Assembly: GCA_019347805.1 (NCBI GenBank)
Contig: JAHWKR010000011.1
Span: 1-64,000, forward strand
From: Methanobacteriota archaeon
Lineage (GTDB): Archaea > Thermoplasmatota > E2 > JACPAO01 > JAHWKR01
Direction: 5' to 3'
Length of the DNA: 64,000 nt
Of this stretch, positions 16,787 to 32,852 are shown piece after piece. The notes under the pieces were generated by a model. That model worked only from the letters and a program-made list of their open reading frames with translations, was not told the DNA's origin and did not search any database. Position numbers and translations under genes: made by a program. The first letter of the stretch is position 1. Every line of letters begins with the position of its first letter.

Positions 16787-18007
16787 CTAGATCTCCTCCG
16801 GTTCCCGCGGCGCCGCCTTGCGCTTGGCGAGGGCGGCGATCTCGGCGGCGGTCTGCTCTTCGGCGGCGGTCATCGCCTCGACCTGTTCGAGCTCGTGCTT
16901 GATCTCCTCATGGCTCGGGATCGGGCCGAGGATATCGTCCGGCTTGCCGATGCTCTTTTCGAGGTCGGCCGAGGACCAGTCCTTTGCGGTGGCCGTCTCG
17001 GGGTCGATGCCGCCGCGGATGTAGGCGCCGGCGCTCCGCATGAGGCTCGAGACCTCGAACGGGAGCACGATCTTGGTCGCCTCGCCCTCGCCGAGTTTCT
17101 TGAGCGCATCGAGCGATAGGACCGTGAGGGAGCGAGCGTCCAGTTCGGCGGAGCCGAGCGCCAGGATGCGCAGACCCTGCGCCTCGCCCTGCCGTTCCAG
17201 GATCTGTTTCATCCGCTCGCCCTGCGCCTCGAGGATCTTCGCCTGGCGGAGACCCTCGGCTTCGAGGACGCGGGATCGCTTGCCGCCCTCGGCCTTGAGG
17301 ATGGCGCTGCGCTTCTCGCCGTCGGCGATGAGGATGGCCGCGCGTCGGGTGCGCTCGGCGGAGGTCTGCTCCTCCATGGCCGCCTTGACACGACCAACGG
17401 GGTCGACCTCGCGGATCTCCACCGCCTCGACCTTGACGCCCCAGCCGTCGGTGGCCTGGTCGAGGATGTCCCGGAGGCGTGTATTGATGGTGTCGCGGTT
17501 GTAGAGGATCTCGTCGAGCTCCATGTCACCCAGGATGCTCCGGAGGGTGGTCTGGGCGAGCGCGACGGTGGCGAGCTTGTAGTTGGCGACCTCGAAGAAC
17601 GACTTCTCCGGGTCGATGATCTTGATGTAGATGACGGCGTCGACGTTGGTGGGCGAGTTGTCCTTGGTGATGACCTCTTGCCGGGGGACGTCCAGGACCT
17701 GTGTGCGCAGGTCGAGCTTGATGACCTGCGAGATCATGGGATAGACCCAGTTGAAACCGGGGTTCAGTTTGTGGCGGTAACGCCCGAGGACGATCCAGAG
17801 CCCTTGTTCGTAGGGCTGGACGATGCGCACGCCGCTGATCAGGATGATGATGATGGCGACGATGAAGAAGATCGCGAGCGTGACGAGGGTCACGTCGACC
17901 TGCATGAGGACCGGATCGAAGAACATGGACACACCTTTGGCGGGAAGAGAGACGAGCGTGATGATAAAGGACGAGAGCTGTGCAGGGAGTGGGAGGGCGG
18001 GGTTCAT
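16787..18007 (-). CDS. SPFH/Band 7 (stomatin-like) protein
   Basis: VRIVQPYEQGLWIVLGRYRHKLNPGFNWVYPMISQVIKLDLRTQVLDVPRQEVITKDNSPTNVDAVIYIKI. Confidence 0.93.
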   Translation of the reverse strand: MNPALPLPAQLSSFIITLVSLPAKGVSMFFDPVLMQVDVTLVTLAIFFIVAIIIILISGVRIVQPYEQGLWIVLGRYRHKLNPGFNWVYPMISQVIKLDLRTQVLDVPRQEVITKDNSPTNVDAVIYIKIIDPEKSFFEVANYKLATVALAQTTLRSILGDMELDEILYNRDTINTRLRDILDQATDGWGVKVEAVEIREVDPVGRVKAAMEEQTSAERTRRAAILIADGEKRSAILKAEGGKRSRVLEAEGLRQAKILEAQGERMKQILERQGEAQGLRILALGSAELDARSLTVLSLDALKKLGEGEATKIVLPFEVSSLMRSAGAYIRGGIDPETATAKDWSSADLEKSIGKPDDILGPIPSHEEIKHELEQVEAMTAAEEQTAAEIAALAKRKAAPREPEEI

Positions 18008-18495
18008 GGTGCCGCCTCCACGGGTGGTGTCTGCAACGGTTCGACGTACGGGCGTACCTTGACGTGGACGCCGCGCGACGCCTCGACCACCACCTTGTTA
18101 CCCTCGGGGATCGGTTCGTCGGCGGTGGCGCTCCAGATCTGTCCCTCGATGCGCACCTTGCCGACCGTGACGTCCGGCTCGATGTGGCGCGTCACCGTAC
18201 CAATCTTGCCGACGAGCGATTGTCCGATGGTCGTGAGCGGTCCGGTCGAGGGCGGAGCGAGCTGGCGGTAGACCCGCAGCGTGATGAACGTGGTCGGGAA
18301 GGCGACGACGATGCCGACGATGGGCGCCCAGACGCTGAAGAGGAACTCCTCGATGATGAGCCCCAACGTGCCGAGCAGGATGAGCACGGTGGCGGGCACG
18401 GCGATGAAGAAGCCGGGCTGGCTGAGTTCCCAGAGATAGAGGACGACCCCGGCGATGACGAAGCCCATGGGCAACCAGAACGTGACGTCCGGCAT
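18004..18495 (-). CDS. NfeD-like membrane protein
   Basis: TM segments then OB-like VGKIGTVTRHIEPDVTVGKVRIEGQIWSATADEPIPEGNKVVV; stop/start overlap with SPFH gene. Confidence 0.85.
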   Translation of the reverse strand: MPDVTFWLPMGFVIAGVVLYLWELSQPGFFIAVPATVLILLGTLGLIIEEFLFSVWAPIVGIVVAFPTTFITLRVYRQLAPPSTGPLTTIGQSLVGKIGTVTRHIEPDVTVGKVRIEGQIWSATADEPIPEGNKVVVEASRGVHVKVRPYVEPLQTPPVEAAP

Positions 18496-18597: not shown

Positions 18598-19341
18598 TCA
18601 GATGATGCGGCTGCCTTCGAACTCCACGACACGCGCATAGACGAGCGCGAAGACGATGAGCCAGGCGACGACGGTCCAGGCGAGAAAGAGCGCAGCACCC
18701 GCAATTGGCCCCCTTACGCCGTGGCGTGCGGCATACCACGCGGTGATGGCGAGCGCGGTCGTGCCGAGGAGGACGAAGAAGCCATGGATGCCCGTCAGCC
18801 AGTAATAGAGCGAGCCAGCCGGCCCCTCCCACGGAACGAAGCCCTCTGCCGCGAGGCCCGCGACGTGGACACCGAGCGTGACCAGATGCGCGAGCGCGAA
18901 CAGGACGGCCACCATGGGAGCGATGACACCACCGATGCGCCATGCCGCCCATACCGCCACACCGGCGGCCAGCATGATGACGGTCGAGGCGAGGGTCCAG
19001 ACATTGACGAGGTCACTGGCGACGGCCGGCCACGTCGCCTGACGCAGGAGATCGTGGGCGACAATCGAGCGCAATGCCGCGGCGTAGAAGAGCGACGACG
19101 CCAGGACGAGCGCTCCGGCGAGCACCACGTGCGTCCCCGAGACGCGCTGCGTCCGTTGCTGTGGCACGGTGGCGTCGCGGATCCATCCGACCGCGGCGAT
19201 CGCCATGAGACCGAACGCGACGAAGAGCATGGGCCGCCACGCCACGGCCCCCCAGGCGAGGAAAGGGGCCGAGAGGCCGGCGATGGCGGGCCAACCGCTC
19301 CAGGGCCAGGAATCGGGCCTGTGCGGCCGTGTCTCCGTCAT
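18598..19341 (-). CDS. Heme-copper oxidase subunit III-like
   Basis: Multi-TM; LYYWLTGIHGFFVLLGTTALAITAWYAARHG; start overlaps subunit I stop (TGA/ATG overlap at 19338-19341). Confidence 0.75.
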   Translation of the reverse strand: MTETRPHRPDSWPWSGWPAIAGLSAPFLAWGAVAWRPMLFVAFGLMAIAAVGWIRDATVPQQRTQRVSGTHVVLAGALVLASSLFYAAALRSIVAHDLLRQATWPAVASDLVNVWTLASTVIMLAAGVAVWAAWRIGGVIAPMVAVLFALAHLVTLGVHVAGLAAEGFVPWEGPAGSLYYWLTGIHGFFVLLGTTALAITAWYAARHGVRGPIAGAALFLAWTVVAWLIVFALVYARVVEFEGSRII

Positions 19342-20993
19342 GCGGCCTCCTCCGTGCCCGTGCGAGGGCTTGGGCGCGTCGCCGTCCCTCGGTCCGCCTC
19401 TGCTTCCTCCCACGGGTCGTCCCTTCCCGGTCGACCCCGCACCAGGGTCACAGCGAGGTTCGCGAGGAAAAGGAGCTGTGCGACGGCGGTGATGAACGCA
19501 CCGACGGTCTCGGCCATGTTGACCCCACCCCAGGCGGCATCGTAGTCATGGATGCGGCGCGGCATCCCCTGCAACCCGAGATAATGCATCGGGAAGAACG
19601 TCAGGTTGATGCCGACCACGGTGAGCCAGAAATGCCACTTCCCGAGCGGCTCAGACAAGCGTCGCCCGAACGCGATGGGGAAGTAATAGTAGATGGCCGC
19701 GAAAAGGCCGAGCACGGTCCCCCCGAAGATGATGTAATGGAAATGGGCGATGACCCAATAGGTGTCGTGCGCATAGACGTCGAACGGCAGGAACGACAGG
19801 AAGACACCGTTCGCCCCCCCGACCGTGAACATGAGGATGAAGCCGAGCGCGAAGAGCATCGGTGTCGTGAAATGGATGCGCCCCCAACGCAAGGAAGCGA
19901 TCCAACTCAGGATGACGACGCCGGACGGCAAGGCGACCGTCCAGGTCATCGCGACGGCGAAGAGACCTGCCGCCGACGACAGTCCGGTCGTGAACATGTG
20001 ATGCCACCATACCAGGAGCCCGAAGAGGGCGACCCCCGCCATGCCCATGATGACGGTGAACGTCGACAGGACGGAGCGGCCCGAGAAGCGATGCAGTACT
20101 GCCGAGAGGAAACCGAACGCCGGGATGATCATGACATAGGTGGCGGGATGGGAATAGAACCAGAAGAGGTCTTGCCAAAGAAGCGGCCCCGGCAAGGTCT
20201 CCGGCGCGAAGAACCAGGTACCGAAGTTGCGGTCGAGCCAAAGGAACCCGAGCGCCGTGAGGAGGAACGGACCGGCGATGACGACCAGCACCGAGGAGAA
20301 CAGGATGCCCCACACCGGGATCGGCATCGACCTAAGCGGTACGTCGGGTGAACGGCTGCGCAGGATCGTGGCGAGGAAATTGCCACCCGCCATGGTCGCG
20401 CCGAACGTCTCGAGACCGACGGCCCAGATCCACCAATCCTGCCCCAAGCCGGGCGAGAAACCGCCGAGCGACAGAGGCGGATAGGAGGTCCAGCCCGCGA
20501 TCGGCTTCTGTCCGAAGAGGAAGCCCAGTTCGAGGATGGAACCGCCGAGCAGGATGAGCCACAGGTCGAGCGCGTTGAGACGCGGGAAGGCCATGTTGTT
20601 GGCCCCGATGAGCCGCGGAACCACCGCGCTGCCGATGCCGAAGAAGACGACCACCGCGAAGAAGAAGATCATGAAGGTCCCATGCAACGTGAACCAGCCC
20701 AGATATTCCTCCGGCCCCATGATGGTGCGACCCGGCGCGGCCAGTTCGGTGCGCATGAAGAGCGCCGCGAGGCCGCCGAAGAAGAAGAACAGCATCGAGG
20801 CGGCGATCCACAGGACCCCCGCGCGGACCGGGTCGGTCGTGAAGACCCAGGCACGAACGGCCCGCCAACGCCTGTTCCACTCACCGTCCGCAGCTCCATC
20901 GGGTGCCGCCACGATGCCCACCACCGAAGGTTCCGGCAAACCAGATGGCATTGCGGCGATGTGGGCCCCGTGCATCAGGTTTAGGGAGAGCAT
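19338..20993 (-). CDS. Heme-copper oxidase subunit I
   Basis: WWHHMFTTG, FWFYSHPATYVMIIPAFG, HDTYWVIAHFHYIIFGG; true N-terminus near MLSLNLMHG (20993), not the 871-aa ORF start. Confidence 0.92.
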   Translation of the reverse strand: MLSLNLMHGAHIAAMPSGLPEPSVVGIVAAPDGAADGEWNRRWRAVRAWVFTTDPVRAGVLWIAASMLFFFFGGLAALFMRTELAAPGRTIMGPEEYLGWFTLHGTFMIFFFAVVVFFGIGSAVVPRLIGANNMAFPRLNALDLWLILLGGSILELGFLFGQKPIAGWTSYPPLSLGGFSPGLGQDWWIWAVGLETFGATMAGGNFLATILRSRSPDVPLRSMPIPVWGILFSSVLVVIAGPFLLTALGFLWLDRNFGTWFFAPETLPGPLLWQDLFWFYSHPATYVMIIPAFGFLSAVLHRFSGRSVLSTFTVIMGMAGVALFGLLVWWHHMFTTGLSSAAGLFAVAMTWTVALPSGVVILSWIASLRWGRIHFTTPMLFALGFILMFTVGGANGVFLSFLPFDVYAHDTYWVIAHFHYIIFGGTVLGLFAAIYYYFPIAFGRRLSEPLGKWHFWLTVVGINLTFFPMHYLGLQGMPRRIHDYDAAWGGVNMAETVGAFITAVAQLLFLANLAVTLVRGRPGRDDPWEEAEADRGTATRPSPRTGTEEAA

Positions 20994-21113
20994 CAGCCTG
21001 CCGGAGGGCGTGAGGTCGACGACGGAGCGTCGGCGCGTCCGCCGCACCGCGCCCGAGGCCCATCTTTCGGCCGACCGGCCGCTGCCGCACATGGTGGACA
21101 TGGGCACGTCGGG

Positions 21114-22541
21114 GTGTCGGGGCGGGTGGTGCCGTTGACACGACCGGGCATCTTCGCACGATCCGGTGACCTCCATCGGCTTGTCGTCGTCACGCTCCTC
21201 ATCCCGTTGTGGGTCGTTCTCAGACCGCACCCGGTGATGGACCTCTTGACGCCGCAGACCGAGACGATGCTGGGACGCCTCATCCTCGTCGCTTTCCTCG
21301 CCTGTGTCGTGCGCGTGGCCTGGAACCTGCGCGGACCACAGGGCGTTTTGCCTGCGACGCGACGGGGATGGGCCGCATCGCTCGCGCTCGTCGCCACCAC
21401 GACCCTCTTGTACACGGCAGCCGCCGGTGCCTTCTTGGAAAGGAACATACCAAGAGTGGCGTCGACATCCGTCTACGGGCCGCTCGTCCCGTGGCCCGGC
21501 CTCGAAGCACCCCTCATCGGCGGCGGGTCGTTGCGGCTCGGCCTCGGCCATATGCTCGTCGCGCTCGTGGTGGCGCTCATCGTCTCCGCCACCGTCCTCC
21601 GTCTCCTCGCGCTGCCACGGCGCCCATGCCGAGGCTCTGCCGCGACCGGTCCGCCCGCGCTCCTTCTCGGCGCCACCTGTCCCGGCTGTCTGCCGCTCTT
21701 CCTCCTGCCGCTCGGTGCGCTCGCGCCACTCGCCTGGCTCACCGACCCGACCTCCCCCGCCTCGACGCTCTTCGTCGTCGGGGCGCCGCTCCTCGCGCTC
21801 CATGGCCTCTGGCGCACGGCCCACACCCCCATATCCGTCTTCCCGTCCATCTTCCGGTCCCACGACACCTCCATCGACCTCACGCTCGTCGCGTTGCCAC
21901 TGGCGTACGCCGGACTGCCGCGCGGCGCCTCCCCCCAACAAGACGGCGTCCATCTCGTCTACATCCTGGCGCTGGTCGGTGCGCTCCTTCTCGTCGGTGC
22001 GGTCTTCATCGCGCTCTTCTACTACCTCATCAAATATCGTGCATCACGCCCAGACGCCGATCGCGATGTCGACAAGGAGATCGGTCCCGCCGCCCGCCGT
22101 GTCCTCATCGCCCTGTTCCTGATCATCCCGGCCGGCCTCATCTTCGGCATCGGCATCTACAGCCAGATGGTCGTCCTCGACGGCATGCGAGAGGTGCCGG
22201 AAGACGCCTTGGAGGTGGATGTGACCGCCGCCCAGTTCGCCTGGACGTTCCAATACCCCGACGGCAACAGGAGCTTCGATGAACTGACCGTCCCTCACGG
22301 ACGCGGCGTCGTCCTCAACGTCACGAGCCGCGACGTCATCCACAGTCTGTTCATCCCGGAGATGGGCATCAAGATCGACGCCACGCCCGGGCGTGAGAAC
22401 CAGGTCGTGTTCCAACCGCTCCGCAGCGGGACGTTCCAAGGACGATGCGCCGAACATTGCGGCGTCGGTCACACCGACATGCTGTTCACGCTCACGGTAC
22501 TCGACAAGGGCGAGGCACCGCCGTACGAGAACGGTTCATGA
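21114..22541 (+). CDS. Fusion: polytopic N-terminal domain + heme-copper oxidase subunit II (CuA)
   Basis: 475 aa; C-terminus DVIHSLFIPEMGIKID and CuA motif CAEHCGVGHTDM; N-terminal about 280 aa polytopic with CPGC. Confidence 0.82.
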   Translation: MSGRVVPLTRPGIFARSGDLHRLVVVTLLIPLWVVLRPHPVMDLLTPQTETMLGRLILVAFLACVVRVAWNLRGPQGVLPATRRGWAASLALVATTTLLYTAAAGAFLERNIPRVASTSVYGPLVPWPGLEAPLIGGGSLRLGLGHMLVALVVALIVSATVLRLLALPRRPCRGSAATGPPALLLGATCPGCLPLFLLPLGALAPLAWLTDPTSPASTLFVVGAPLLALHGLWRTAHTPISVFPSIFRSHDTSIDLTLVALPLAYAGLPRGASPQQDGVHLVYILALVGALLLVGAVFIALFYYLIKYRASRPDADRDVDKEIGPAARRVLIALFLIIPAGLIFGIGIYSQMVVLDGMREVPEDALEVDVTAAQFAWTFQYPDGNRSFDELTVPHGRGVVLNVTSRDVIHSLFIPEMGIKIDATPGRENQVVFQPLRSGTFQGRCAEHCGVGHTDMLFTLTVLDKGEAPPYENGS

Positions 22542-27382: not shown

Positions 27383-28015
27383 CTAGATGCGCGGTGCCTG
27401 GCATGGCAGGCAACGCTTCTCCGGATCCTCTCTCAGGAACCAGAGGTCGATCTGTCCCTCGCGCGGCCCTTCCGGGTCGCCCGAGTCGCTCGTGAAGCCG
27501 TCTACCTCGGTGGCCAGCTTCGTGACATCGACGACGACGACGAAGTTGTAGTCCTGGCCGGAACCGCTGTCGGTGGTCACGGCGCCCGTGTGGACGGTCC
27601 AGACGTGGACCTTGACCGTGAGGCGTTCCGTGGCGAGGTGGTTGCCGAGCATGTACTGGACCTCTTTCGGCTCGAGGTAGTACCACTCACGGACACTCCA
27701 GCTCGCGCCGTTGTCGTCCGTGAACGCGTACGTCTCCCCTGTGGGGAAGAGGTTCTTGCCCGACGGGTCGCCCGTCCCTTTCGGGACCGCGTAGACCCAG
27801 CCCTGGCTCGCCTTGTCGAGGACGACCACACCGTCGAACCAGCTGGTCTGTCCTGTTGCGAGCCCTGCGACGGCGGCCAGGTCCGGGTCGTACTTGGTGA
27901 GGTCGAAGAGGATCATGCGTCCCTCGACGTCCTCGGTCCGGACCTGTCCGGTCGCCGCGGCGAACGGGATGGAGCCGGCGATGATGATGACGGCGACGAT
28001 CGTCCTGAGCCTCAT
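27383..28015 (-). CDS. Secreted protein, tandem paralog family member A
   Basis: Signal peptide MRLRTIVAVIIIAGSIPFAAATG; VEGRMILFDLTKYDPDLAAVAGLATGQTSWFDGVVVLDKASQGWVYAVPKG; C-terminal CLPC. Confidence 0.75.
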   Translation of the reverse strand: MRLRTIVAVIIIAGSIPFAAATGQVRTEDVEGRMILFDLTKYDPDLAAVAGLATGQTSWFDGVVVLDKASQGWVYAVPKGTGDPSGKNLFPTGETYAFTDDNGASWSVREWYYLEPKEVQYMLGNHLATERLTVKVHVWTVHTGAVTTDSGSGQDYNFVVVVDVTKLATEVDGFTSDSGDPEGPREGQIDLWFLREDPEKRCLPCQAPRI

Positions 28016-28262
28016 GAGGCCACCTCCGTGGCCATCGGGTGCAGGGCGTACCGGGTCTCCATCATGATGTCGTTCCACCTCGTGGCAGGTGAACGATGGG
28101 TTGTGGATAGAAAAGGCTGTTTTCAGACTTCGTTTTCTGGAAAAGGGCGCGCTGGCGGTGGCGCTTCCAGAGGCGAACAGCCGCGAGGGGCCGGAAAAGC
28201 GGATGTTGTACGGGCGTCGGGATCGTGTGACGAAACGGCTGTTTCAACGGCTTTTGCGTGGT

Positions 28263-29048
28263 TCAGCGCTCGAGCCGCTTCGCAGGTCCCTTGGCGGGGT
28301 CGTCGACCGCAAGAAGCGCGGGGACCCGGTTGAGACCGAAGACCACCGTTGGTGGGTCCCTCATGGCGTCCGCTCCCATCTCCCGCACGACCGGGTCGGC
28401 GCCGGTCTGGACCGGTTCCAGAAGGGCACCCGCAACGGGCGGCGGAGAGACCGCGGGCACCGCCGGGGTCGGTTTGGCGACGATGCCCTCCGGGGTCGCC
28501 TCGAAACGGTCGGGGAAGAGACGGTCGAGGCGGTAGGTGATGGCCCAGTTGTAGCTGCCCTCGATCCCTGCCGGAGCGGGTTGGTGGGGGTCGATGTCAT
28601 GGATTTCTCCGACGCGCACCCCATAGGCGAAGTGGCTGGTGGGGGCGCCGAAAGTGCCGACGCCCAGATACTGGAACTCGTAGACGGTCCAGAGGACGCC
28701 GTAGCGGTCACGCACCTGGGCGAAGTCGCCGCTCGGGACGAGGGAAGGACTTATCCGGGGGTCTGGGTGGTCCGAATTCCACGCGAAGACCATACGACCG
28801 TCACGTTCGTCCAAGGCGCGGGAGGACGCGAACGCTCCGAAGAGATACGTCTCTCGTTGTGTGGACAAGCCATAGTCTACGGGTGGTGGAAGGGGCATCC
28901 CAGCCGCCGACGGCTCGATGACGGCGCGCAAGTAGGCCGAATGGCCCGCCACCAGGGCCGCCTCTTCTGGAAAACCGGCCGCCACTCCTGTCGACACAAG
29001 GGCCGAGACGACGACGAAGACACCGATCAAACGCACGGTCCGAAGCAC
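28263..29048 (-). CDS. Secreted protein, tandem paralog family member B (divergent)
   Basis: GTG start; signal peptide LIGVFVVVSALVSTGVAAG; ALVAGHSAYLRAVIEP matches ALVTGHTVYAKFVIDA of member C. Confidence 0.65.
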   Translation of the reverse strand: MLRTVRLIGVFVVVSALVSTGVAAGFPEEAALVAGHSAYLRAVIEPSAAGMPLPPPVDYGLSTQRETYLFGAFASSRALDERDGRMVFAWNSDHPDPRISPSLVPSGDFAQVRDRYGVLWTVYEFQYLGVGTFGAPTSHFAYGVRVGEIHDIDPHQPAPAGIEGSYNWAITYRLDRLFPDRFEATPEGIVAKPTPAVPAVSPPPVAGALLEPVQTGADPVVREMGADAMRDPPTVVFGLNRVPALLAVDDPAKGPAKRLER

Positions 29049-29440
29049 TTACGCGCACACTCGAACCGGTCCCATCGCTCAGGTCCGGTCATGAAGGCGC
29101 CCATCCTGGACGGATATGGTATGGTTAACTAGGGAAACCTTGGGCCGATGAGCCGGAGAGGGCCACCATATCCACCCTAAATGGAATTGGTGGAAGTAAC
29201 ATCATCCACTTTTCGAGGGGCGGAACGGTCGGCGGGGCCACGAGGTGGGCGGTCGATCGCCAGGGCGAGACAAAACGTCCCGTAGGTCAGGAGACAGGGT
29301 CGGCGGAGCTCGATCGAGACGCCGAAAAAGCGCCCCTCCGCCCATGCATCAGCGTGGATCGGAGGAGGAGGGGGACAAGGATGGGAAGAGAGGGACCGGC
29401 CGAAGCCGGTCATTCACCCGATTCAGTAGGCTTTCGCCGA

Positions 29441-31024
29441 CTAGGGGTACCCAGCGGGCGCCGTGGTGGTCGTGGCCGGCGTGGTGGGCGCGGTACCCTT
29501 CGTGTGAAGGGCCCACTGGCCACCGGTCGGGTCACTGAGGTACACGTAGAGATCCACGAAGGCGGTCTTGTGGTCCTCAGGGTAACAGTCCGGTCCGGTG
29601 GTACCCGAGCCGCTGGGCTGGCGGTTGTGCGGCCAGTCGAGGTTGTCGTCACGGCAGTTCTCACGGTGCTTGAGGACCGTGGTGTTGTCGTCGAACGAAT
29701 TACCCCGCATGATCTCCTCGGTCGTGGTCGGCGGTGCCGAGTGGACCGTCCGCCCGCGGAAGGTGTCGTCGAAGCTGAACGACGAACCGTCCGTGCAGAG
29801 GTCCACGAGTTCGACCGGAGTACCGATGCCGACTGGATCGAGGGCCGTGTGGTACGCACTGACCGCTGCCTCTCCGATGCCACCGCCGATCGGGTAGACC
29901 GACGAGTTGTTCAGGTTCTGGTCGGTCTGCTTCCCGAAGGCCTCGTAGATGTTGAGACCGGCGCAGGTGTCGACCTGAAGGGCGAACGTGTAGTACTCCT
30001 GGATCGTCGCGTCGTACTGCGGCGCGTGGATCTGGGTGATCCAGAGGCGCTCCTTGAAGAGGTCCTGGATGCTCCCGTTGCACTTGTGGCCGAGGTCGAA
30101 GCTGCCGGGGGTCACGGTCGAGTTGGCCGGGGAGGTCGTGTTGGCGACGACTCCGGTGTTGTCCGCCGGCGTCGCGTAGACCTCGCAGCCGTTCTCGTTC
30201 TGGGGGTCCGTGTAGGTCCACGGGAACAACTGGTTGACGATCCCCGAGACGGCCGTGCTGACACCGACAGGGGTGTGGGTGCCGGGTTGAACGTCGCCGC
30301 GGTCGGCTCCGACGAGCTCCTTCGGGAGGTCGAGGAGACAGTTGTAGTCGTACTCCTGGACCTCATGGTAGATGCCGTTCGGGTCGAGGAAGTCGAGGTG
30401 ACCGCGGTAGCGGAAGTTGCTGCCGTGGGCGGGGTCACAGTCGCCCTTCTCGACGGCGACCGCGTAGGCGCCGAGGATGTACGTCGTGTTGTATGGGGTA
30501 TCGGGGTCGATGTATCCATATCTTGCGAACTCGGACGCACAGTGGTCGATGTCCCGGTCGAAATCATAGTCCTGTTGCGCATCGTCGTACGGCGCGGCCT
30601 CGTCCTCATCGGACGGGTGCGCGCCCACCGTCTGGTCCAGGTTCTGACCGTTGAACCACACGACGCACTCGCGCTGGGCGGCGACATCCTTGATGACATC
30701 GATCTCGATATCGATATCGGGCTTCGTGTCGTTCACGACGAAGTAGCCGGCGATCGCGGCGAAGTCGGTCGGAAGACCGAGCGTGTTGTTCACGTCCGCT
30801 TGGAGTCTCAGGTCAATACTGAGCGCGTCGATCACGAATTTCGCGTAGACGGTGTGCCCAGTCACAAGGGCCGGGGGTTCACCAGTGGCGTTCGGTTTTC
30901 CGCTGCAAGTCGTCAGGTAGCCGGTCTGGTAGTTACAGTCCCCGAACTTCCAACCGTACGATGCGTAACCGGCTGGGATGAGTACGAGGATCCCGACCAC
31001 CGCGGCCAAAATCTTAGCGTTCAT
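29441..31024 (-). CDS. Secreted protein, tandem paralog family member C
   Basis: 527 aa; ALVTGHTVYAKFVIDA, CVVWFNGQNL, AVEKGDCDPAHGSNFRYRGHLDFLDPNGIYHEVQEYDYNC; SD-like GGAGGT before ATG. Confidence 0.75.
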   Translation of the reverse strand: MNAKILAAVVGILVLIPAGYASYGWKFGDCNYQTGYLTTCSGKPNATGEPPALVTGHTVYAKFVIDALSIDLRLQADVNNTLGLPTDFAAIAGYFVVNDTKPDIDIEIDVIKDVAAQRECVVWFNGQNLDQTVGAHPSDEDEAAPYDDAQQDYDFDRDIDHCASEFARYGYIDPDTPYNTTYILGAYAVAVEKGDCDPAHGSNFRYRGHLDFLDPNGIYHEVQEYDYNCLLDLPKELVGADRGDVQPGTHTPVGVSTAVSGIVNQLFPWTYTDPQNENGCEVYATPADNTGVVANTTSPANSTVTPGSFDLGHKCNGSIQDLFKERLWITQIHAPQYDATIQEYYTFALQVDTCAGLNIYEAFGKQTDQNLNNSSVYPIGGGIGEAAVSAYHTALDPVGIGTPVELVDLCTDGSSFSFDDTFRGRTVHSAPPTTTEEIMRGNSFDDNTTVLKHRENCRDDNLDWPHNRQPSGSGTTGPDCYPEDHKTAFVDLYVYLSDPTGGQWALHTKGTAPTTPATTTTAPAGYP

Positions 31025-31421
31025 GTTTCTGCTACACCTCCTTATTCACTTCGGATGAGCGGGAACGCTTTGGGCCGGTCTTGATCGACGTCCTCGGGTT
31101 CTTCGAACCCGAAGCGCCAGGTCTTGGTAGCCAGCTTCCGTGCGTCCACACCTCTCTCCTCCTTAGAGCAAGCTTTCGTCAAGGGAACAGTGGTTCCCGA
31201 ACGGAAAGTCTGCACTTTGTGAGAAGAGAGCTGGAGTATATATCGATTTCGTCAATTTAAGAGGTGTAACAGGAAATGAGTGGCTATTGTGACAAGTCAG
31301 CGAGGGGAATCAGAGTCTAATTCTGTCCCACCCACAGACTTGTCATCACTTCTGTTGAGTATATACCTGAAGCTAGATTGACACTATACTTACCTCTGAA
31401 AACAAATGGGCACTAGGAGAC

Positions 31422-31443
31422 ATTTGCCATCCCTATGGCAAAT
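31422..31443. promoter_or_regulatory. Inverted repeat ATTTGCCAT-CCCT-ATGGCAAAT beside GGTATATACC
   Basis: 9-bp perfect arms, 4-nt spacer; TATA-like palindrome begins about 6 nt away. Confidence 0.45.
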
Positions 31444-31973
31444 CTGTGGTATATACCGCGATTTAGGTGATGAACCTTCTCACCTTCAGAAGTTCCGGGA
31501 GATCCCACCGGGTCGACCGCGCCACTTCATGACCCGGCGGAGCCGGACAGAAGGAGCCGAGCTCTCCACCCTCATGGACAGAAAGTGGGGCGACCGGTAG
31601 CAAGTCGGCAGCGATCGTCGGTATGCGGACCACCCGGACGCAGTCGCGGAGAAAAGCCGGGCGCGCACGGCGACCAAGACCCTCGGTCGGGGACGGTGGT
31701 CCAGTAGCGAGTCGACGAGCGGTCCCGATCCGGTGTCGAAACCCGCGCGGCCAGGTCGACAGCGGAAAGACCGGGACCGAAAACAGACAGCGCGACGGCA
31801 CGCGACCAGCGCGATTTGTCGGAGCATCGACAAAAGATCGATCGGACCCCTTCCAGCGAGACGACATCAGAAGGGACACGAAAAGAAACAGCGAAAAAAG
31901 ACGCGGGTGACCCTTTCCAGACAAGAAAAGGGGGGAGAGAGAACGGGGGGAGAGAACGGTTGAGGGTCAGGGT

Positions 31974-32852
31974 CTACTGGCCGGCCCAGACCTCGAACTT
32001 GGTCTTGTTCGGGTCGCTGACGTGGGCGCAGTAGGGGTCGTTCGCGCATTCCTCTTCCGTGCCGTGGAAGGGGGTGCCGTCCGCGTAGGTGGTGCCGAAC
32101 TTGGTGAAGTTGCCGCGGTCCTCCTTGTCGTAGTAGAGGTCCACCTCGAAGGTGTTGTGCTCGTGCAGCGTGTCCTCGCCCGCCTTGAGGCCGGAGGAGC
32201 CGTTACAGACGTGGTCGCTCTCCGAGGCACAGTAGGAGTCGCCGTTGTTGACCTCGTCCGTGGTGCCGCCACCGGTGCCCTCGTGGGTCGTGGTGCCGCG
32301 GCCGCCGCCGAGGAGGAGGTTTCCGCTCTTGTAGTACCAGGTGTCGATGCCGGTCGCGAAGTTGTAGATGCGCCCGGGGTCGAAGGCCTGGATCGGCGGG
32401 TCCTGCACCCGGGCGTGGGTCGGGGTGACCCAGACATGCTTCGTCTCGTTGAGACCGAGGTAGCCGTCCAAGACCGTCTCGGTCTTGAGGCCGGACCCGC
32501 ACGAGTACGTGTAGTGCGCGATGATGTGCGTCACGTTGTTGGGGTCACGGAAGGCGATCTTGTAGTCCTGGAACTCGAAGTTCTCGCCGTCGCGCGGGTC
32601 GCACTGGCCCTTGGCGACCGTATAGATGAACCCGTCCTGGACGGTGTTCAAGACGGTCATGCCGTTGAACCAGACGACCTTCGACTCCACGATGCCCGCG
32701 ATGAGCGCGACATCCGGGTCGAAGCCGCCCATGTTGGCGTACACCGTGTGACCGGTGACGACGGTCTTGTCCTGTAGCGTGGTCGCGGCGGCGGCCATCG
32801 GAAGTCCGACGACGCCAGCGATTATCAGAGCGATCAGTTTCTTGTTCATCAT
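31974..32852 (-). CDS. Secreted protein, tandem paralog family member D
   Basis: Signal peptide MNKKLIALIIAGVVGLPMAAAA; VVTGHTVYANMGGFDPDVALIAGIVESKVVWFNGMTVLNTVQDGFIYTVAKGQCDPRDGENFEFQDYKIAFRDPNNVTHIIAHYTYSC. Confidence 0.75.
   Translation of the reverse strand: MMNKKLIALIIAGVVGLPMAAAATTLQDKTVVTGHTVYANMGGFDPDVALIAGIVESKVVWFNGMTVLNTVQDGFIYTVAKGQCDPRDGENFEFQDYKIAFRDPNNVTHIIAHYTYSCGSGLKTETVLDGYLGLNETKHVWVTPTHARVQDPPIQAFDPGRIYNFATGIDTWYYKSGNLLLGGGRGTTTHEGTGGGTTDEVNNGDSYCASESDHVCNGSSGLKAGEDTLHEHNTFEVDLYYDKEDRGNFTKFGTTYADGTPFHGTEEECANDPYCAHVSDPNKTKFEVWAGQ

Follow-up and report, generated by a model that had tools for sequence, protein, structure and literature searches.

How the D- and K-channels of heme-copper oxidases gate chemistry and pumping is a long-standing question, which has been studied almost solely with designed mutants. 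In the R. sphaeroides oxidase, the substitution S197D lowers activity without eliminating it and abolishes pumping, and pumping is restored in the D132N/N139D double mutant. About two protons reach this enzyme via the K path and six via the D path, and in the N139D or N207D mutant the added carboxylate leaves the enzyme active but uncouples its pumping (PMC6934443). The slow turnover of D132N enzymes has been ascribed to proton back-leak from the outer or exit side (PMC4321873), and in B-type oxidases one proton path is enough (PMC6934443). That family A enzymes can lose the K-channel is already known; an archaeal origin of this family would imply about seven independent losses (PMC8239418), and in the iron-oxidation oxidases of Acidithiobacillus both channels are affected, as D132 is replaced by N or T and K362 by I or V. 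For the Thermoplasmatota, all coxA have been placed in the A1 subfamily, which has D- and K-channels (PMC9287336). In the open-access literature, we found no description of an enzyme in which D132, E286, K362 and the subunit II residue E101 are missing together.

The enzyme described here lacks all four. It is encoded in a window of 64,000 nucleotides (positions 1 to 64,000 of contig JAHWKR010000011.1, assembly GCA_019347805.1) from a Thermoplasmatota genome of 2.94 Mb in 81 contigs with a completeness of 90.9%. The oxidase locus (18598-22541) comprises a cox3-like gene and cox1, both on the minus strand, and a plus-strand cox2, which is transcribed divergently from cox1 and points away from it, an arrangement that is frequent in other Thermoplasmatota oxidase loci. 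cox1 (19338..20951, minus strand) encodes a subunit I of 537 amino acids (PF00115, E=2.4e-126). The first-pass annotation had drawn this gene from 19338 to 20993; the stop at 19338 stands, but the ATG at 20951 is the more likely start, with 20993 as a possible alternative upstream start, and the frame is free of stop codons and open as far as 21953 on the minus strand. The cox3-like gene (18598..19341, minus strand), which likely starts near 19341 within a longer frame reaching 19413, is very divergent and scores 18.8 bits against PF00510, under the gathering score of 23.8. It matches, at 1.1e-10, the cox3 adjoining the closest relative of our cox1, termed L044, and that neighbor passes PF00510. 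Immediately downstream of cox3 and on the same strand, a Stomatin (Band 7) and NfeD pair is located (16787-18495). Heme A synthase is encoded in the same genome, as is a second oxidase on contig C70, a canonical A1 enzyme accompanied by its own cox2 and reading IGAKD, FFGHPEVY and IPTGIK, so that D, E and K are all present. This paralogue has its own peculiarities, namely a GMPRG motif, with Gly for the second of the propionate Arg residues (R482), and HAITM where HGTTM is expected at the heme a His.

Pfam, PDB matches, Foldseek and the phylogenetic tree all identify the subunit I of the window as a family A heme-copper oxygen reductase. Among PDB entries, aa3 enzymes match best (down to 3.5e-113), ba3 reaching only about 1e-10, and the alignments run gap-free across the D and K sites, in agreement with the unbroken spacing to the K position noted earlier. 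The first-pass annotation had allowed that a structure comparison might move the Asp and Lys equivalents elsewhere; Foldseek searches with an AlphaFold2 model (pLDDT 85.9, pTM 0.87) instead keep the protein on the aa3 oxidases, the K362M and D132A mutant structures included, at TM 0.84-0.88. Against TIGR02891 (CtaD), 533.5 bits are reached, which is below the curated cut-off of 670.75 and leaves the protein outside the CtaD equivalog. R. sphaeroides numbering was taken from a 406-residue segment matched to PDB 1m56_A (query residue 1 = residue 120). The motifs IGANNMAFPR, FWFYSHPATYV, LPSGVVILSW and WWHHMF are read, and the retention of the heme and CuB histidines and of the cross-link Tyr, as previously claimed from motifs, is borne out by this alignment: H268 (H284), H317/H318 (H333/H334), H403 (H419), H405 (H421) and Y272 (Y288) are in place. 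H90, the heme a ligand H102, precedes the mapped segment and was assigned by motif, completing the six metal-ligand histidines of family A. H395/D396 (H411/D412) and R465/R466 (R481/R482) are likewise kept, and thus the heme, CuB, Mg-site and propionate-Arg residues are all retained.

The changes are found in the proton channels. At the mouth of the D-channel, the conserved amino-terminal TTDHK reads TTDPV, which places P41 (20829..20831, minus strand) at the position of H26, where 74 of 81 family A rows have His; as this residue precedes the anchored segment, its number is given by motif. S108 (20628..20630, minus strand) aligns with N121 of the R. sphaeroides chain, and N119 (20595..20597, minus strand) with D132 (bovine D91) in both the PDB and the R. 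sphaeroides alignments. In helix VI (YSHPATY, 20136..20156, minus strand), Y266-S267 occupy F282/G283, A270 replaces E286, T271 replaces V287 and Y272 is the cross-link Tyr. The replacement of bovine D91 by Asn, the loss of E242 and the Tyr-Ser pair resembling A2-type oxidases had all been read from the sequence before, and the alignments uphold each of them. Further inside, S200 and S201 are exchanged for G184 and A185, and the equivalents of N139 (N126) and N207 (N191) are kept. Two new acids appear in the lumen: D129 (20565..20567, minus strand) at the S142 position and E181 (20409..20411, minus strand) at the S197 position, the latter common to L044 and L094. H26, S142 and S197 are listed as D-channel residues, S142 and S197 as lining ones (PMC10341450). 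In short, the alignments show a D-channel that is deprived of its mouth (H26, N121, D132) and of the E286 carboxylate and that carries new carboxylates deeper, at the S142 and S197 positions. Given these acids at other lumen positions, the D-path seems to have been re-plumbed and not just lost, which qualifies the earlier statement that canonical D- and K-residues are lacking: the loss itself holds, but it overlooks the acids elsewhere in the D-channel lumen and the extension of the K-channel loss into subunit II. Other new charged residues in the membrane part include E141 and E481. The H-pathway was considered as a substitute and rejected, as the relatives are at least as polar at most of its positions, the only unusual ones being E481 (497, bovine S454) and H468 (484, bovine S441).

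In helix VIII, S343 to V346 (19914..19925, minus strand) combine T359S with K362V, as had been proposed for bovine T316 and K319, and S365 is kept as S349. The counterpart of this loss lies in subunit II (cox2, 21114..22541, plus strand; PF00116), where Ile332 (22107..22109, plus strand) takes the position of the K-channel entry Glu, R. sphaeroides subunit II E101, which was recognized by the motif xE(I/V)xWT. Judged by the aligned residues, both subunits have given up the K-channel. In all family A pairs that could be scored, K362 and E101 are present or missing jointly; in the thinned set both are present in 17 pairs and both absent in 8, with no mixed case. These figures reflect few independent events, as the tree shows 2 changes and does not firmly reject one K-less origin (p-AU 0.069), and the independent-pairs test, with just 1-2 pairs available, has no power. 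In the K-lacking pairs the E101 position is occupied by Ile (window), Asn (L044), Ser (L071), Val (L008), Phe (L030), Pro (L116) and Thr (L119), and L034 was read by eye from Acidithiobacillus relatives, because the automatic alignment had misplaced their subunit II rows onto helix 1. With the same reserve as to the number of events, the counts suggest that loss of the K-channel involves both subunits together. A Glu about 10 residues upstream of Ile332 could provide an alternative K-channel entry, which would count against the explanation preferred below.

Among K-containing family A relatives of the thinned set, 72 columns are near-invariant, 11 of which line the D- or K-channel. In subunit I, 5 of these 11 are altered (H26, N121, S201, V287, K362), compared with 6 of the remaining 61 columns (Fisher test, post hoc and with kinship ignored, p=0.009). 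Chance explains poorly that channel columns are altered more often; it is the channels rather than the catalytic core that have diverged. Subunit II keeps an intact CuA motif: it scores 158.4 bits against TIGR02866 (CoxB), above the cut-off of 147.7, and its CuA ligand set is complete (DVIH and CAEHCGVGHTDM). Its fused N-terminal multi-helix domain (21114-21900), for which Pfam gave no usable match, contains a CPxC motif (CPGC at 21678) and may be a domain for copper or thiol assembly. The Cox2 partner of L044 (L073:6779-8716, minus strand) carries the same fused domain with the motif CPAC, the two proteins being 34% identical over 342 columns, CPxC domain included.

In an IQ-TREE phylogeny of 39 family A and B rows from which the trait columns had been removed, subunit I and L044 pair (100/99) inside family A, on long branches of 0.86 and 0.97 that could be a sign of relaxed constraint. 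A placement among B-type enzymes, which the first-pass annotation had left open, did not hold up: these are set apart by a branch of 2.17. A family B (ba3-type) enzyme with a K-analogue was likewise rejected, since helices VI and VIII are unlike those of the B-type rows L096-L115, and alignment and tree both speak against it. L044, an uncharacterized enzyme of another Thermoplasmatota class (genome G117), is the only close relative in the sample, at 48% identity. Both enzymes share FYSHPATY, Glu at 197, V287T, G312S, the loss of K362 and of subunit II E101, the CPxC domain on subunit II and a cox2 divergent from cox1-cox3; in L044, however, K362 is replaced by Leu and E101 by Asn, D132, N121, H26 and S201 are kept, and there is no acid at 142. 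The simplest order of events would be that E197 and the K loss came first, followed in the window lineage by the loss of the D-channel mouth and the gain of D129. The idea that relatives might share the Asn/Val pair found no support, L044 combining Asp with Leu and others Asp with Ile or Leu; no close homologue with this combination was found in 80 genomes of the class, 390 of the phylum and a second phylum draw, nor was the combination seen among 35 loci of a named-genome scan.

Loss of K is not unique to the window enzyme, since it is common to other Thermoplasmatota and Acidithiobacillus oxidases. A K-less family A clade of Thermoplasmatota (L008, L030, L031, L071, L086, L094, L116, L119) likewise lacks K362 and, where scored, E101 of subunit II, but is separate in the tree, retains E286 and mostly retains D132. 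By their aligned residues, the window enzyme, L044 and this clade contradict the placement of all Thermoplasmatota coxA in the D- and K-channel subfamily (PMC9287336). L094, a member of the clade, combines D132R, N139E and S197E. Outside the window, E197 occurs in 2 of 81 sampled family A rows (L044 and L094); K is missing from all three E197 enzymes and D132 from two of them, which is suggestive although the sample is small. K-less family A enzymes of the Thermoplasmatota family f36 (L086-L093 and L095) carry Glu at N207 and Arg at S197, another rearranged D-channel. The Acidithiobacillus oxidases (L034-L038) resemble the window enzyme as natural family A members without D132 and K362, in which, as far as subunit II could be read, an entry Glu was not seen either; they differ in that identity is about 30%, E286 is kept, acids are absent at 142 and 197, and Y and L stand in for N121 and N139, respectively. 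With A2-type oxidases such as Thermus caa3 (PDB 2yev) and the bacterial L009, L010 and L012, the enzyme has in common the YSHP-A-Y helix VI, a CuA subunit II and the heme and CuB ligands. The sampled A2 relatives, however, keep otherwise complete channels, with D132, K362 and, where subunit II was read, E101, all three of which the window enzyme lacks. It also groups in the tree with L044 alone and not with other YS enzymes, and as these are scattered through the tree, YS does not mark a clade among the rows sampled.

The earlier suggestion of another proton route or altered pumping appears reasonable. In our estimate it is about an even chance that the locus encodes a working, A2-like family A cytochrome c/cupredoxin:O2 oxidase with a re-plumbed D-type path, whose pumping would probably be altered or absent. 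Electrons would enter via CuA, and O2 reduction would draw its protons through the re-plumbed path, in which D129 and E181 might take over the relay roles of D132 and E286, assisted by the YS pair near the active site and by N126/N191; the side-chain orientation and water access of E181 and D129 are predicted by homology. As the K path is without both titratable residues (V346, Ile332), the D-type path is the likely source of all protons. We put forward more tentatively, at somewhat worse than even odds, the full scheme in which all proton uptake runs via the rebuilt path with gate acids at 142 and 197, the K-channel and the D-mouth having been given up. A functional enzyme of this kind would be in line with the open frame, the kept metal ligands, Tyr, Mg site, Arg pair, CuA motif and cox3, and also with the heme A synthase and the canonical A1 paralogue in the genome; it would fit less well with the lack of D129 in L044, the long branches and the small number of K/E101 loss events. 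The joint loss of K362 and E101, the lumen positions of both new acids, E197 in the K-less L044, the D132R/N139E/S197E set of L094 and the more frequent change of channel columns also speak for the preferred explanation. Since acids inside the channel uncouple the R. sphaeroides oxidase (N139D, N207D), the enzyme probably pumps less or not at all, or its pumping is gated in another manner.

Alternatively, the relocated carboxylates D129 and E181 might restore a D-type channel that carries all protons in a fully coupled, still pumping enzyme. The acids do sit at lumen positions, N126 and N191 are kept, a single path suffices in B-type oxidases and moved carboxylates are said to restore pumping in some R. 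sphaeroides double mutants, but the mouth residues and S200/S201 are lost and carboxylates put inside the channel uncouple (PMC6934443), which makes this reading unlikely. We regard as doubtful a non- or weakly electrogenic oxidase drawing its chemical protons from the outer (P) side, as in NO reductases and as proposed for D132N, whose slow turnover is thought to use an exit-side back-leak (PMC4321873). Key residues are indeed missing from both N-side entries, but the new lumen acids would then be without a role, and no recognizable P-side channel was identified. Equally doubtful is a decaying or regulatory paralogue that is losing function while the canonical A1 oxidase on contig C70 carries respiration: this would accommodate that paralogue, the long branch and the very divergent cox3, but stop codons are absent, the catalytic residues, CuA and three subunits are all kept, the changes are coherent across two subunits, and the same unusual features are kept by the sister lineage in another class. 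NO reductases are not known to possess D- or K-channels, and a NO reductase or other terminal reductase derived from family A would need no such channels on the N side, but with the cross-link Tyr, the three CuB His and CuA all kept and aa3 oxidases as the closest folds this is very improbable.

Should the full scheme with gate acids at 142 and 197 be true, evolution would have produced in this enzyme a decoupled or re-coupled oxidase that parallels the R. sphaeroides channel mutants in nature. Like D132N, N139D, N207D and S197D, it has the same channel altered and acids moved inside, whereas those are single laboratory changes made with E286 and K362 present, and the window enzyme is also without E286 and the K-channel. 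Its resemblance to mutants with stopped or altered pumping means that it could serve to test coupling. The natural combinations on offer are K lost together with subunit II E101, and D132 lost together with acids at 142, 139 or 197; as they occur in intact respiratory loci, the replacement of D132 or E286 by a moved carboxylate becomes testable. Elsewhere in the window, the region 27383-32852 encodes several predicted secreted proteins, apparent paralogues that are alike at their starts and share recurring motifs such as VVTGHTVY.
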